From NCBI GenBank assembly GCA_024998815.1, contig JACEUQ010000001.1, positions 558,001-622,000 on the forward strand: a stretch of DNA of 64,000 nucleotides. Direction: 5' to 3'. The position numbers and the translations under genes are program-made. Below, piece after piece: positions 9,133 to 62,722 of the stretch. This stretch comes from Opitutus sp. (lineage in GTDB: Bacteria > Verrucomicrobiota > Verrucomicrobiia > Opitutales > Opitutaceae). Numbering within the stretch: the first letter of the stretch is position 1; every line of letters starts with the position of its first letter. Under the pieces are notes generated by a model that had not been told where the DNA came from, did not search any database, and worked only from the letters and a program-made list of their open reading frames with translations.

Positions 9133-9449
9133 GGTGGTTTAAGGCGGCTCCTCGACGTTTTCGTTCGGTAGCCCCCAAACCATTGGCCACAAAAAACACA
9201 AAATGACACAAAAAAGGCCAACGTTGACGCCTTCGCAGTTAATAATCCGCCCAGATGATTTAGCCGCAAAAAAGCGCAGAAGTCGTAAAAATAAAACCCT
9301 GCAGAAGCCACTCCGTTTTTTGCGCTGTTTGCGCCTCTTTGCGGCCACCCGCCGTTTATGGGGGTGTAGGGATTGCTGACCACGGCTTGGCTTTGCGGCC
9401 TTTGCGAGGGTTTGGCGGTCTTTGCCCTAAAAATTCGCTCCTGTCATTT
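9133..9449. repeat. 317-bp gene-free spacer filled with degenerate 9-bp NNCGCAAAG units
   Basis: No credible gene. The spacer holds at least four blocks of short-period sequence: CAC-AAAA units at 9185-9219, CGCAAA-like units at 9259-9291, and reverse-complement TTTGCG units at 9316-9347 and 9390-9426. Blocks 9259-9291 and 9316-9347 are in inverted orientation and resemble the arms of the hairpin at 38257-38336. It looks like several decayed copies of that element. A possible 69-codon minus-strand frame at 9139-9348 is low-complexity and overlaps the repeats, so I do not call it. Confidence 0.65.
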
Positions 9450-38174: not shown

Positions 38175-38256
38175 GCACTGACCGCGTGCTGACGCCCTAC
38201 AGCTCGGGCACGGGCGAAGTGTTGGATCTGCCAGTTCTTAAAAAAACTTCGATCCT

Positions 38257-38336
38257 TTTAGCCGCGAAAGAACGCATAGAACGCATAGCAATACAGGTCC
38301 TATTCTTTGCGTTCCTTGCGTTCTTTTGCGGCTAAA
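38257..38336. repeat. Cargo-less hairpin element built from 9-bp NNCGCAAAG units
   Basis: Two 32-bp arms (38257-38288 and 38305-38336) in inverted orientation match at 28 of 32 positions, with a 16-bp loop. Each arm is five bases plus three 9-bp units close to NNCGCAAAG, the same length and design as the arms that flank the GxxExxY gene at 61067-61548. It occupies the 313-bp spacer between gltX and the gene at 38488; the rest of that spacer shows nothing. Confidence 0.88.
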
Positions 38337-59191: not shown

Positions 59192-61042
59192 CTAGCGCAG
59201 CAACGCGGCGCTGCGCCATTGGGCTTTTGGGATGTACGCCATGCTAATCAAGATGAGCTGGGAGGCGACAAACACCACCAGGGCAACGAAGGCCTGATCC
59301 ATGAAGCCGTAACTGTGCAGGCCGACGCCGAGCATGTTCGTGCCAAACCAGCTCCAACTGGTGACGATGTTGCCAAAAATCGCCAGGGCCATGATCCCGC
59401 GGGTACGAGCCAGACCGCCCCAGCGCGCGTGCAGGATGATGGCGTTCCAAATCACGATGATCAGCGCGCCGTTTTCCTTCGGATCCCAGCCCCAGAAGCG
59501 CCCCCAAGACTGGTCAGCCCAGATTCCGCCCAGGATCGTTCCCACCAGGCTGAACAGGGTGGCAAAACAGGTGATGCCGTAGACCATCCGGTTCAGCGAA
59601 TCGGCCGTGGCCTGATCAAGCGAGCGGGTGAACACACCGCGCCCCACGTAAATGATCGCCAGGAACCCGGCCAGATAAGTGGCCGAGTAGCCGATGGTGA
59701 TCACCACGACGTGCGTGGCCAACCAGAAGTTGGAATCGAGCACCGCGCGCATCATTTCCAGTGTGTCGCCAGTGAGCGAGAGGTGATGGGCGATTACCAG
59801 GGTGCAAAACCCGGTGAGCGCCGCCGCCACCGAACCGATGCCGTTGCGGAAGATTTTCTCCAAAATCAGGCAAAGCCCTACGCTGCCCCAACCCACGAAC
59901 AGCGCCGAAGAATACAGGTTGGTCACGGGCGGACGGCCCTCGATCCACATGCGCAAAAGGATGCCCGTGGTCGTAGCCACCCAAGCCAGCAACACCAAGT
60001 AATACGCGCTGCGCTGCAGGGCATCGGGCCACTTCAGCCACGAGAAGACCGCCAGCAAGAAGGCCAGCACGTAGAGCGTCATGCTGGTGTAAAACGGCTC
60101 GGCTTGGTTAAAGCGCACCTCGGCGTCGGTCTTTTTTAAAACATCCGCGTACGAGCTTTCGGCCTCGGCGCGCTGCTTGGCGAGCAGGGTGTTAAACTGC
60201 TCGGCGTTCTGTTGGGTCCACGTGCGCTGCAGCCCGGCGAAGGTCAGCGCGTGGACGTTAACTGAAGTGTTTTTGAACGTGCCGAGGAGCGCTTGGCCGG
60301 CCTTCGACCAGTGCGTGTCGGCGGCACCCGCTGCGGGCGGCACCACTAGCAGGCTGCCGATTTGGTCCATGCGCAGGAATTTGGATCCCATTTGCATAAC
60401 GAAACTGGCCAGTTCGGGGTTGGTCGACTTGCCGGTTTCACGACTCCGCACCGCCTCGATTCCCGCCTCAAGGTTGTCTTGCAGGCGCAGCAGTTCAGCG
60501 AGGAAATCCGAGCCGTCGGGCATGACCACGCTGTGTTTGAGCTGCTGGTAAAAGATGACGTGGTTGCGCAGGTTGACCACCGCGCGCTGGTACGGGGTGC
60601 GCACCGCTGACTCGACGCCCTCGGCCAGTCCGGCTTGGCGATCGAGCTCTTCGAGTTTGGGTGTTAGCTGGCGGTAGGAAAAACGCTTCTTGCCGTCACC
60701 GTCTTCGATCTTGAGGCCGAAGACATCGAGCAGGCCGGGGTTGACGATTTCAAAGTGCTGGTAGGTGTCGGCACGATCCGGGCGGAAAAACACGTCGAGC
60801 AACCAGGCCGAGGGCGTGAGGCTGGTGCCGTCGGGGGTGACGACCCGCTGGCGGCCTTGGAGGAGCAGCAGGGTGTTGCGCGCGACGCTGTCGAGCGGCT
60901 TGGTGCGGCCATTGGCGACAACGGGAATGCGGCCAAAGCCGTCGAGGTTGAAGTCTGATTTGGTCGGCCGCAGTAGCGGGCTGGCGAGGTAAAGCGCACC
61001 GAGCAGGAGAACGAGAGCAGGAATGAGGCGTTTGAAGGACAT
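59192..61042 (-). CDS. resC: Cytochrome c biogenesis protein ResC/CcsA
   Basis: 616 aa. Inner-membrane haem handling protein of the system II (Ccs) pathway, which brings haem to apocytochrome c outside the membrane together with ResB/Ccs1. About 8-9 membrane segments in the C-terminal half and the haem-binding WWD motif GGIWADQSWGRFWGWDPKEN. Conserved His residues are in IAHHLSLTG, THVVVITIGY and GLHSYGF. The N-terminal ~320 residues form a large extracytoplasmic domain, as in fused-type CcsA. resB lies upstream on the strand, separated by the inserted GxxExxY cassette. Confidence 0.95.
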   Translation of the reverse strand: MSFKRLIPALVLLLGALYLASPLLRPTKSDFNLDGFGRIPVVANGRTKPLDSVARNTLLLLQGRQRVVTPDGTSLTPSAWLLDVFFRPDRADTYQHFEIVNPGLLDVFGLKIEDGDGKKRFSYRQLTPKLEELDRQAGLAEGVESAVRTPYQRAVVNLRNHVIFYQQLKHSVVMPDGSDFLAELLRLQDNLEAGIEAVRSRETGKSTNPELASFVMQMGSKFLRMDQIGSLLVVPPAAGAADTHWSKAGQALLGTFKNTSVNVHALTFAGLQRTWTQQNAEQFNTLLAKQRAEAESSYADVLKKTDAEVRFNQAEPFYTSMTLYVLAFLLAVFSWLKWPDALQRSAYYLVLLAWVATTTGILLRMWIEGRPPVTNLYSSALFVGWGSVGLCLILEKIFRNGIGSVAAALTGFCTLVIAHHLSLTGDTLEMMRAVLDSNFWLATHVVVITIGYSATYLAGFLAIIYVGRGVFTRSLDQATADSLNRMVYGITCFATLFSLVGTILGGIWADQSWGRFWGWDPKENGALIIVIWNAIILHARWGGLARTRGIMALAIFGNIVTSWSWFGTNMLGVGLHSYGFMDQAFVALVVFVASQLILISMAYIPKAQWRSAALLR

Positions 61043-61066
61043 CGGGACGGGTGGAGAGAAACTGAT

Positions 61067-61098
61067 TTTTTAACGCAAAGATCGCAAAGGACGCAAAG
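61067..61098. repeat. Left 32-bp terminal inverted repeat of the GxxExxY cassette
   Basis: Five T followed by AACGCAAAG, ATCGCAAAG and GACGCAAAG. Exact reverse complement of 61517-61548. The same 5+9+9+9 layout is found in the hairpin arms at 38257-38336. Confidence 0.95.
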
Positions 61099-61108
61099 TA
61101 GAGAGGCC

Positions 61109-61513
61109 TTAGGGTTGGTCGGCACCCTTTAGTATGATCCGCGCCATACCGTTTTTAATGGTGGCTTCATGGAAGTTGAAGATGAGTCCAATGGGCGCGT
61201 TGAGAAGTCGCATGTAGCTTAGGAGTTGGGCACGGTGGACGGGCAGGATTTTTTCCACGACTTTGTTTTCGACGATGACACAGCCTTCGGCGTAAACATC
61301 CAGACGTAGGGGTTCTTCAAAAATGAAGCCTTTGTATTCAATCGGAACGACCAATTGGCTGACTGCAGTGATCCCGCGCAGTTGGAGTTCACGCATGAGG
61401 CATTTTTCATAAATGCTCTCGATCAGGCCGGGACCTTTATGCCTGTGAACCTCAATAGCCGCACCGATTATTTCGGAGCTGAGTGCTTGGGCTTTCTGGT
61501 AGTTCGGGTGCAT
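61109..61513 (-). CDS. GxxExxY protein, predicted PD-(D/E)XK nuclease-like
   Basis: 134 aa. The family motif is G29-L-I-E32-S-I-Y35 after an EIIGAAIEVHRHKGPG helix. A PD-(D/E)XK-like core follows: Asp72 in LRLDVYAEG and Glu82-x-Lys84 in CVIVENKVVEKI, then LLSYMRLLNAPIGLIFNF and a final MARIIL. Other members I recall read VIVELKAV at this place. The family often occurs in several copies per genome and its function is not established; a nuclease activity is an inference from the fold. It is the only gene in the inverted-repeat cassette and shares the strand of resB and resC. Confidence 0.9.
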   Translation of the reverse strand: MHPNYQKAQALSSEIIGAAIEVHRHKGPGLIESIYEKCLMRELQLRGITAVSQLVVPIEYKGFIFEEPLRLDVYAEGCVIVENKVVEKILPVHRAQLLSYMRLLNAPIGLIFNFHEATIKNGMARIILKGADQP

Positions 61514-61516
61514 GGC

Positions 61517-61548
61517 CTTTGCGTCCTTTGCGATCTTTGCGTTAAAAA
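61517..61548. repeat. Right 32-bp terminal inverted repeat of the GxxExxY cassette
   Basis: Exact reverse complement of 61067-61098. On the minus strand it ends 3 bp before the ATG of the GxxExxY gene, so it must contain or replace that gene's ribosome-binding region (a GCAAAGG tail is visible). Confidence 0.95.
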
Positions 61549-61561
61549 TGCCGTTCTTTCC

Positions 61562-62722
61562 TCAGGCGGTTTTGCGGCGCTTGTTGGCGAAGGCGAAGAG
61601 GTGGATGCTGAATTGGACGCTTAGGCCCAGGCCCATCAGGATGCAGGCAATGTAGGGGAGCAGCCAGCTGGGGTTGCGCACCACTTGGAGGATCGTGGTG
61701 GTGTCGTTGTTATCAAACCCCGCCTGATAAAAGGTCAGGCCGTCGTAGCGCAGCGGGTTGTTCATGTAGATGAGCGTCTCGCGGTCGGTGCTGCCGTCGG
61801 CAGAGTGCAGGCGCACTTTGCTGGCGAAGTTCTTGGGGATCTCGGTGCCCATGTAGCGGTCATGGGAAAATTTCAGCAGGGTGAGCGAGTAGGGCTTGTA
61901 GGCGCGGGTGGGGCGCAGCGCCATGCGGAAGGTCCGGCCGGCGTAGTCAAAGACCTGCGGCTGTGCCAGCATGCTCGAAACCACCCAGGTGCCCAGCGAG
62001 GCGTTGCCCGGGCCGATCAACTCAACGACCGCCGTGGGCAGGTTGCGCTCGTTCTGCTTATAGGTCATCGCCATCGGCATAACCACCAGCTTGGCCCCGA
62101 TGTCGCGGGTGGCCGGCGGGGGCGTGCTGACGTTGCCCAATTGTTCGCGCATCTGAATCGTTGCATTCGGGTAGTAGCTGCGGGAGACCACTCGGAAGGG
62201 CAGGCGCTCGTGCTGGATCGGCTCGTTTTTAAGCAGGTGTTCGGCGGGGATGGCGACCACTTGGTCCCACTGCGGATCGGTGACGTCGGTGATGGCCAGC
62301 TCGTTGTCACGGTAGCTTTCCGAGTAGTTGCGCGTCTGACCTTGATCGAGGCGCAGCTGGAACTCTTCCTGCCACAGGCCGGTGAGCAGTTCGCCCACGA
62401 GCAAAATGATCAGGCCGGCGTGGGTGAGGAAAATACCGGATTTTTTCCAGCTAAACTTGAATCGGTACAGGTGCGAGGCGACCAGGTTGAGCAGGAGCAG
62501 GCCGCCGATGAAGTAGCCGCCCGGAAACACCGGCACGGGGAAACCTTTGATGTCCCAGAGCACAAAAAAGGTGCGGAAATATTTCTCCTGCACCGCCCAA
62601 ATGCCCAGGTTCACTTGGTCGAGGGTGGCCGCGAAGATCAGCACGATCGACAGCGCCAGCAGGACGACCGTCACTTGCAACGAGGTGAAAAACTTCACGA
62701 ACGAATTCCAGATGTCGCACAT
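61562..62722 (-). CDS. resB: Cytochrome c biogenesis protein ResB/Ccs1
   Basis: 386 aa. Partner of ResC in system II cytochrome c maturation. Three N-terminal membrane segments (LQVTVVLLALSIVLIFAATL; YFIGGLLLLNLVASHL; IFLTHAGLIILLVGELLTG), a large extracytoplasmic domain with YNPLRYDGLTFYQAGF-like NNPLRYDGLTFYQAGFD, and a last segment near the end (LPYIACILMGLGLSVQF). The LDQVNLGIWAVQEKYF stretch fits the family. 3 bp separate it from the probable lipoprotein gene upstream. Confidence 0.94.
   Translation of the reverse strand: MCDIWNSFVKFFTSLQVTVVLLALSIVLIFAATLDQVNLGIWAVQEKYFRTFFVLWDIKGFPVPVFPGGYFIGGLLLLNLVASHLYRFKFSWKKSGIFLTHAGLIILLVGELLTGLWQEEFQLRLDQGQTRNYSESYRDNELAITDVTDPQWDQVVAIPAEHLLKNEPIQHERLPFRVVSRSYYPNATIQMREQLGNVSTPPPATRDIGAKLVVMPMAMTYKQNERNLPTAVVELIGPGNASLGTWVVSSMLAQPQVFDYAGRTFRMALRPTRAYKPYSLTLLKFSHDRYMGTEIPKNFASKVRLHSADGSTDRETLIYMNNPLRYDGLTFYQAGFDNNDTTTILQVVRNPSWLLPYIACILMGLGLSVQFSIHLFAFANKRRKTA

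Follow-up and report, generated by a model that had tools for sequence, protein, structure and literature searches.

The GxxExxY gene between resB and resC in this Opitutaceae genome (4.24 Mb), together with the inverted repeats that close it off on either side, probably forms a minimal arm-gene-arm element. It would be a REPtron-like system, made up of a nuclease and its own repeats, in which a PD-(D/E)XK nuclease stands in place of an HUH transposase, a REPtron being a TnpAREP/RAYT gene with its REP/REPIN repeats (PMC8266576, PMC3733652). In a few hundred genes of the family, co-change between the words that make up the repeats and certain amino acids of the protein speaks for a minimal mobile element of an undescribed type, whose enzyme would read its own ends. 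The following features lie in the window, that is, the whole stretch of DNA analyzed (64,000 nt, C1:558001-622000):

61067-61098, plus strand: left terminal arm, TTTTTAA and three CGCAAAG words (61074-61080, 61083-61089, 61092-61098)
61517-61548, minus strand: right terminal arm, identical to the left one in reverse complement (words 61517-61523, 61526-61532, 61535-61541)
61109-61513, minus strand: GxxExxY nuclease-like gene, 134 aa, PF13366/TIGR04256, from profile matches and an AlphaFold2 model (pLDDT 93.6)
61436-61501, minus strand: codons of helix alpha1, residues 5-26, which carries residues 9, 12 and 24 and is proposed to read the word, from predicted secondary structure and covariation
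61262-61300, minus strand: codons D72 to K84, the D...ExK catalytic set, invariant or nearly invariant
38256-38336, no strand assigned: palindromic copy that lacks the gene (arm, short loop, arm), its words resembling CGCATAG/CGCAAGG/CGCAAAG, limits set by eye
9259-9434, no strand assigned: degenerate composite of gene-free arm sequences, limits set by eye

The 482-bp unit is as the preliminary description had it: the arms are exact reverse complements across 32 nt, they stand 10 and 3 nt from the gene, and the flanking genes match ResB (PF05140) and cytochrome c assembly protein (PF01578). Only one inverted-repeat pair was reported in 60400-62200 (minimum 14 nt); it contains both arms and extends to 39 nt at 92% complementarity. 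The CGCAAAG words in each arm are spaced 9 bp apart. CGCAAAGNNCGCAAAG occurs 23 times in the genome, four of them in the window arms, and the reversed pattern not once. The protein passes the curated cut-offs of both PF13366 (E 7.7e-36, 123.4 bits, cut-off 22) and TIGR04256 (E 3.4e-37, 127.3 bits, cut-off 35), and at E 1e-3 it matched no transposase family in the Pfam and TIGR04256 searches and no Pfam family beyond PF13366. The conserved G29/E32/Y35 and D72/E82/K84 set named earlier is borne out by 31 aligned relatives, in which E32, D72, K84, Q96 and Y100 never vary and G29, Y35 and E82 hardly do; the G..E..Y motif and the D/ExK set are both conserved in the family.

In the AlphaFold2 model of the protein (pLDDT 93.6), residues 5-26 form the long helix alpha1. 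The best structural match is the Cas4 protein SSO0001 (PDB 4ic1; Z 9.2, rmsd 3.9, 104 residues, model residues 27-134), followed by 3ijm, an uncharacterized restriction-endonuclease-like protein (Z 8.0); VIA-align rows under Z 8, including Hjc (1gef, Z 7.3), were not counted as evidence of kinship. Some weaker matches cover part of helix alpha1 (e.g., Cas4 4r5q, residues 10-134, Z 6.0), so that the helix lies outside the best match without being established as an addition or as unique. The best Foldseek hit had E 2e-3, with nothing under 1e-3, and a profile search of the PDB sequences gave no match at E 1. As one part of the overall explanation and with the same likelihood, the protein is probably a small PD-(D/E)XK nuclease, in which a Cas4/RecB-like core is preceded by a long helix at the N terminus. 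Such a core would also suit a nuclease that acts against phages or in competition, the repeats being decorative, and one of two relatives submitted to PADLOC, L067, does match a Cas4 model of that defense library weakly (E 6.4e-4). However, the window protein itself has no match in PADLOC (Cas4 models included) or PHROGs, the unit has no partner gene, and the L067 query is rare on plasmids (8 of 72,556 records) and absent from phage records (0 of 50,697), though five loci of the family do lie on viral contigs. A defensive role is therefore extremely improbable.

Inverted arms accompany GxxExxY genes well beyond this one unit. Loci were drawn from relatives, from Verrucomicrobiota, from named genomes of other phyla and from viral contigs, and arms above threshold were found at 309 of 380 (306 of 377 without duplicates); about a fifth (71/380) had no arms at threshold. 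The threshold of 13.0 is the 95th percentile of cross-locus pairings, and a stricter one of 17.5 is the 99th; among 750 random gene-length intervals, drawn in 150 of the loci, six reached the former and four the latter. The counts above 13.0 and 17.5 were 7 and 7 of 7 loci in the own genome, 170 and 125 of 194 in relatives and the phylum, 53 and 38 of 75 in named genomes, and 4 and 4 of 5 on viral contigs (two of them identical). Together, these groups make up the 281 loci with enough flank, for which the counts were 234 and 174, a set that omits L008-L010 (degraded or split genes) and 7 of 288 loci with short flanks, and that includes three duplicate pairs (L068/L200, L089/L292, L283/L284). 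The first of these pairs joins a genome of the same genus (G008) and a named Opitutaceae record, which are identical throughout the gene and for about 310 nt to either side of it. A later set gave 47 and 27 of 66 (after 13 of 79 were omitted as already seen) and a mostly divergent set 28 and 19 of 33 (after 7 of 40 were omitted as fragments), for a pooled 309 and 220 of 380, the three duplicate pairs included.

The median arm length is 31 nt, and the median distances between the arms and the two ends of the profile match are 22 and 17 nt. The arms are exact, by alignment, at only 11 of the 234 armed loci, and most loci use words other than CGCAAAG. Arm self-similarity peaks at lag 9 (0.40) and lag 18 (0.32), compared with about 0.25. 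Consistent words were obtained for 212 of the 234, spaced mostly by 9, then by 8 and 10; each locus has its own 7-bp word, mostly of the form C-R-C-N-R-A-N, which occurs about three times in each arm at intervals of 8-10 bp. Phase was set in the word finder by a weak prior (C1, C3, A6 and a purine at 2 and 5), so that conservation at these positions is partly built in; the prior does not favor A or G at position 5, nor any base at positions 4 and 7. At least three of the five GxxExxY genes on IMG/VR contigs (L282-L284, two identical) have long inverted flanks with A/T-rich words, unlike most chromosomal ones.

DUF559 (PF04480), which we take to be another small nuclease-like family, was used as a control. 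Four of ten stand-alone genes, picked for a short open frame out of 30 loci fetched, had flank palindromes above 13.0, two of them above 17.5. This control is not negative, and the random-interval and cross-locus controls were therefore used in its place. The GxxExxY family is not alone in having palindromes in its flanks, and DUF559 may be a second nuclease family with its own repeats. The palindromes that flank four of its genes (L528, L531, L536 and L537) are C/G-rich and CCCTCTCC-like.

Within the own genome, a profile search found PF13366 at ten places, two of which are the halves of one split gene. Inverted arms 27-42 nt long, scoring 19.5-32 within the locus, flank seven of the eight unsplit genes; cross-locus pairings mostly score 7-14, and the highest (25.5) comes from a pair of genes that share a word. 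The eighth, L008, is interrupted by an internal stop and lacks arms. The genes are diverse and not copies of one another, and their words are CACAGAG, CGCTAAT, CGCAAAG (three genes), CGCGAAT and CACAAAA. A single 32-bp arm common to all copies is thus ruled out, the arms differing from gene to gene with CGCAAAG in three of seven; the expectation that every GxxExxY gene would be flanked by such arms holds for these seven in the sense that each has arms of its own, and fails for L008. The split gene (L009/L010, C1:832422-834084) is interrupted by an insertion of roughly 1.3 kb with a transposase-like frame, and a palindrome of roughly 80 bp, seen by eye, lies outside each half.

Does the protein read these words? 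Covariation was followed in 167 of the 212 consistent-word loci, leaving out those with another phase or word class, a short protein match or an identical protein. Word distance tracks protein distance (Mantel r 0.513; highest value among permutations, 0.093). In 90 of 167 cases a protein and its nearest neighbor share a word, against 13.5 expected; taken alone, this correlation could be explained by shared descent. In tree-aware tests, in which branches are treated as equally likely and the p-values are accordingly rough, two pairs stood out among 2,730: Thr12 with G5 (12 co-changes in the same direction, none in the opposite, 1.9 expected, p 5e-9) and Asn24 with T7 (five co-changes, p 2e-8). 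Asn9 with A4 was weaker (p 1e-3). Arg24 with G7 was dropped, having p 3e-9 in training but p 0.09 in the hold-out.

The three pairs were written down as predictions before the first hold-out was fetched, a set of 66 loci, largely Bacteroidota, with 29 from the phylum of Tangfeifania and the others from twelve genomes of several phyla. All three were confirmed among its usable words (32 of 42): T12 went with G5 in 13/13 cases (other residues, 4/19), N24 with T7 in 4/4 (2/28) and N9 with A4 in 14/16 (5/16). In a second hold-out of divergent members (usable words, 17 of 30), N24 with T7 was the sole pair supported (7/7; others, 1/10), while T12 with G5 failed (0/1, and 8/16 without T12) and N9 with A4 was not significant (2/3; others, 6/14). 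Over the pooled 216 loci, the figures are 93/94 for T12-G5, 42/42 for N24-T7 and 71/85 for N9-A4, and the first two pairs rank at the top of 4,400 tree-aware tests (p 2e-8, and p 1e-5 with four co-changes). Residues 9, 12 and 24 are all placed on the N-terminal helix by the AlphaFold2 model. That the protein recognizes its own word, and hence its own arms, is well supported by these sequence comparisons. The preliminary description went further and had the protein acting on its terminal repeats or on a target site; for the repeats, recognition has strong support from covariation, partial failure in the second hold-out notwithstanding, and we infer that the protein also cuts and moves the arms from the conserved active-site residues, the spacing and the genomic pattern.

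MITEs typically have terminal inverted repeats and short gene-free forms, both of which are found here, and the repeat might accordingly be moved by an unrelated transposase with the gene carried along by chance. However, the link between the family and arms of their own word holds in Verrucomicrobiota, in Bacteroidota and, in the named set, across many other phyla, and the word is tracked by residues of the protein, which makes this reading very improbable.

Do the units move? In at least three relatives (G012, G010 and G003) resB and resC are joined by TGA-TCGCC-ATG, an element-free junction with a 5-nt spacer; the 37-nt spacer previously calculated from removal of the 482 bp is right as arithmetic but is not the empty state found. 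The resC protein of G012 is 96% identical, and flank identity between the own genome (G000) and the empty G012 is 90-96% right up to the element edge, which means either precise loss in G012 or arrival of the unit alone in G000; a short recombination tract is a possible source of the difference. Not all relatives, then, carry the gene at this place, but the element of G009, 82% identical to that of the window and about as similar as its flanks, looks vertically related to it. In the more distant G032 and G013, the junction holds gene-free palindrome-like sequences, seen by eye among the matches listed.

Two other sites show the same variability. At the L005 site, the element is full in G000, reduced to one arm and a gene piece in G007 and G012, and absent in G001, G002, G004, G005 and G011. 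Five other relatives (L450-L454) have an unrelated gene, pilin-like by eye, in place of the GxxExxY element. The L002 site holds a CGCTAAT element beside the leftovers of a CACTAAT element in G000 and G007, CACTAAT elements in G005 and G001 (the latter read from one side only), CACTGAT-type elements in G012 and G004 and a lone arm in G003 (on the side read); it is empty in G002, and G009, G010 and G011 have other sequence there. No clear target-site duplication was found at three filled/empty comparisons, in which the edges have diverged.

Flanks were common to 8/8 pairs of proteins at ≥95% identity (three of these being duplicate records), 6/7 at 90-95%, 22/38 at 80-90%, 26/80 at 75-80% and 37/174 at 70-75%, and they were not shared in 208 of the 307 pairs at ≥70%, all approximate counts since one null comparison scored 344, far over the threshold of 70. 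This gradient indicates slow turnover, as described for RAYT genes and unlike an active insertion sequence. A vertical, immobile gene as the sole account is ruled out by the element-free sites, although inheritance in the short term is vertical. The element-free, remnant and replaced states at orthologous sites support gene and arms coming and going as a unit. The self-spreading element first proposed is borne out in part: the genes of the own genome are diverse, and the homologues at ≥95% identity keep their neighbors in all eight cases, while 208 of the 307 pairs at ≥70% do not and the commoner copies are the gene-free arms.

These sites also bear on two other explanations. The gene could be an immobile, self-regulated resident whose arms are an operator or terminator bound by the protein and whose gene-free copies are its regulon. 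Covariation attests recognition and not cutting, the arms lie close to the gene (medians 22 and 17 nt), and short-term inheritance is vertical, all of which speaks for this reading; it is nevertheless unlikely, given the relatives that lack the whole unit with both arms, the inverted placement of the arms at both outer ends and the retention of the active-site residues. The protein could, on the other hand, be a homing-like or gene-drive-like nuclease: it would cut alleles that lack the element or carry a rival one and be copied into them through repair, with the arms as by-products or marks of immunity. Elements of different words occupy the L002 site in several genomes of the genus, and the flanks of the window element are 90-96% identical to the empty relative up to the edge, both in keeping with homing. 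But the protein co-varies with the words inside its own ends and not with the empty site, and gene-free copies lie at many unrelated sites, so that homing is decidedly unlikely.

The repeat of the window arms recurs elsewhere in the genome as inverted pairs. Away from the window gene, CGCAAAG pairs lie mostly in short palindromes, as judged by eye, and 11 of 19 own-genome sites pass a local palindrome control. Gene-free arms outnumber the gene-bearing copies, which are few and diverse in each genome. Tandem CACAGAG pairs number 3 in the 16 genomes without PF13366 and 555 in the 40 with it (p 2e-6), and tandem CACTAAT pairs 1 and 165 (p 4e-3), p-values that are uncorrected for the differences in kinship, size and completeness between the two groups; the reversed-pattern controls over all 56 genomes gave 9 and 3. 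Resident genes and gene-free copies were expected to agree word for word, and they do so only weakly (CACTAAT, p 0.012; CACAGAG, p 0.33). G042 has 220 tandem CACAGAG pairs, yet among the matches listed no GxxExxY gene with that word was found in it; CGCAAAG is the word of two of its genes, and CACGGAT words adjoin a gene fragment. At other places in the own genome (C2 and C3; L022-L027, L029, L031), a different repeat around AGCAGACTGGAAGTCTGCGCTAC recurs beside gene-free copies, and at L024-L027 the two occur together in units repeated at 148 bp.

How might such an element work? In the REPtron-like explanation favored here, helix alpha1 would read one word per protomer, and several protomers would bind each arm side by side, the words being about one helical turn apart. 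The nuclease would then cut at the ends of the T-runs, and cutting would lead to rare movement or loss of the gene-bearing unit. Short arm-loop-arm copies would move in trans and more often, in the manner of REPtrons, by means of an enzyme from a different superfamily. Tentatively, and with somewhat less than even confidence, GxxExxY units might be placed in a class of mobile DNA of their own, whose members, with one gene in about 0.45 kb, are possibly the smallest of all autonomous elements. A PD-(D/E)XK nuclease alone would move them, a simple helix-to-base code would give new elements new terminal words, and the family, spread over many bacterial phyla and some archaea, would be the source of a large share of their intergenic palindromic repeats.

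PF13366 genes are found in 40 of 56 related genomes, 104 of 194 in the phylum and 75 of 148 in Bacteroidota. In the literature searched, whose scope left aside most subscription journals and all bioRxiv preprints, no described function was found for GxxExxY/TIGR04256/PF13366/PDDEXK_3 and, judged by the listings, no paper related to the repeat words or to palindromes at DUF559 genes. The tie between the family and the intergenic repeats gives a role to both, and it can be tested directly through the handful of residues by which specific bases appear to be read. Should the protein cut and move the arms as well, the REP/REPIN lifestyle would have been arrived at a second time by unrelated means, and the protein would be a very small DNA-recognizing nuclease that can perhaps be re-targeted.

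Among known systems, the RecB/Cas4-like nuclease core is common to the window protein and Cas4 (SSO0001, PDB 4ic1). Cas4 requires a four-cysteine Fe-S cluster; with only two cysteines in its 134 aa, the window protein lacks the four-cysteine set, and it differs as well in that alpha1 lies outside the best aligned range (though within some weaker rows) and that no PADLOC Cas4 model matches. Classical insertion sequences and MITEs have terminal inverted repeats and short non-autonomous copies. The window unit shares these features but, unlike such elements, is 0.48 kb long and has no transposase family match at E 1e-3; at the three sites compared, with their diverged edges, no clear target-site duplication was seen. 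TIRtrons/TIRYTs are alike in that the gene is bracketed by long terminal inverted repeats, in some cases with a genomic repeat family, but their enzyme is a tyrosine HUH transposase, and a tandem word structure is not described in the portions consulted of PMC3733652. The likeness to REPtrons is closest, as far as the consulted portions of PMC8266576 and PMC3733652 describe them: a single small nuclease gene is flanked by repeats whose sequence is specific to the gene, gene-free repeat pairs occur genome-wide in an abundance tied to the presence of the gene, and the gene is mostly chromosomal and unamplified. By the same portions of those papers, the REPtron enzyme is of the HUH/tyrosine type, where GxxExxY proteins have a PD-(D/E)XK-like fold, and REPs are mostly GTAG-tagged and processed as single strands, whereas the window arms (TTTTTAA and CGCAAAG words) lack the GTAG tag and GxxExxY arms consist of three tandem 7-bp words, which suggests that they are read as duplex. 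Finally, it is stated there (PMC8266576, PMC3733652) that tnpAREP mobility lacks evidence, whereas for GxxExxY the sites that are element-free in relatives indicate that the unit has been gained or lost.
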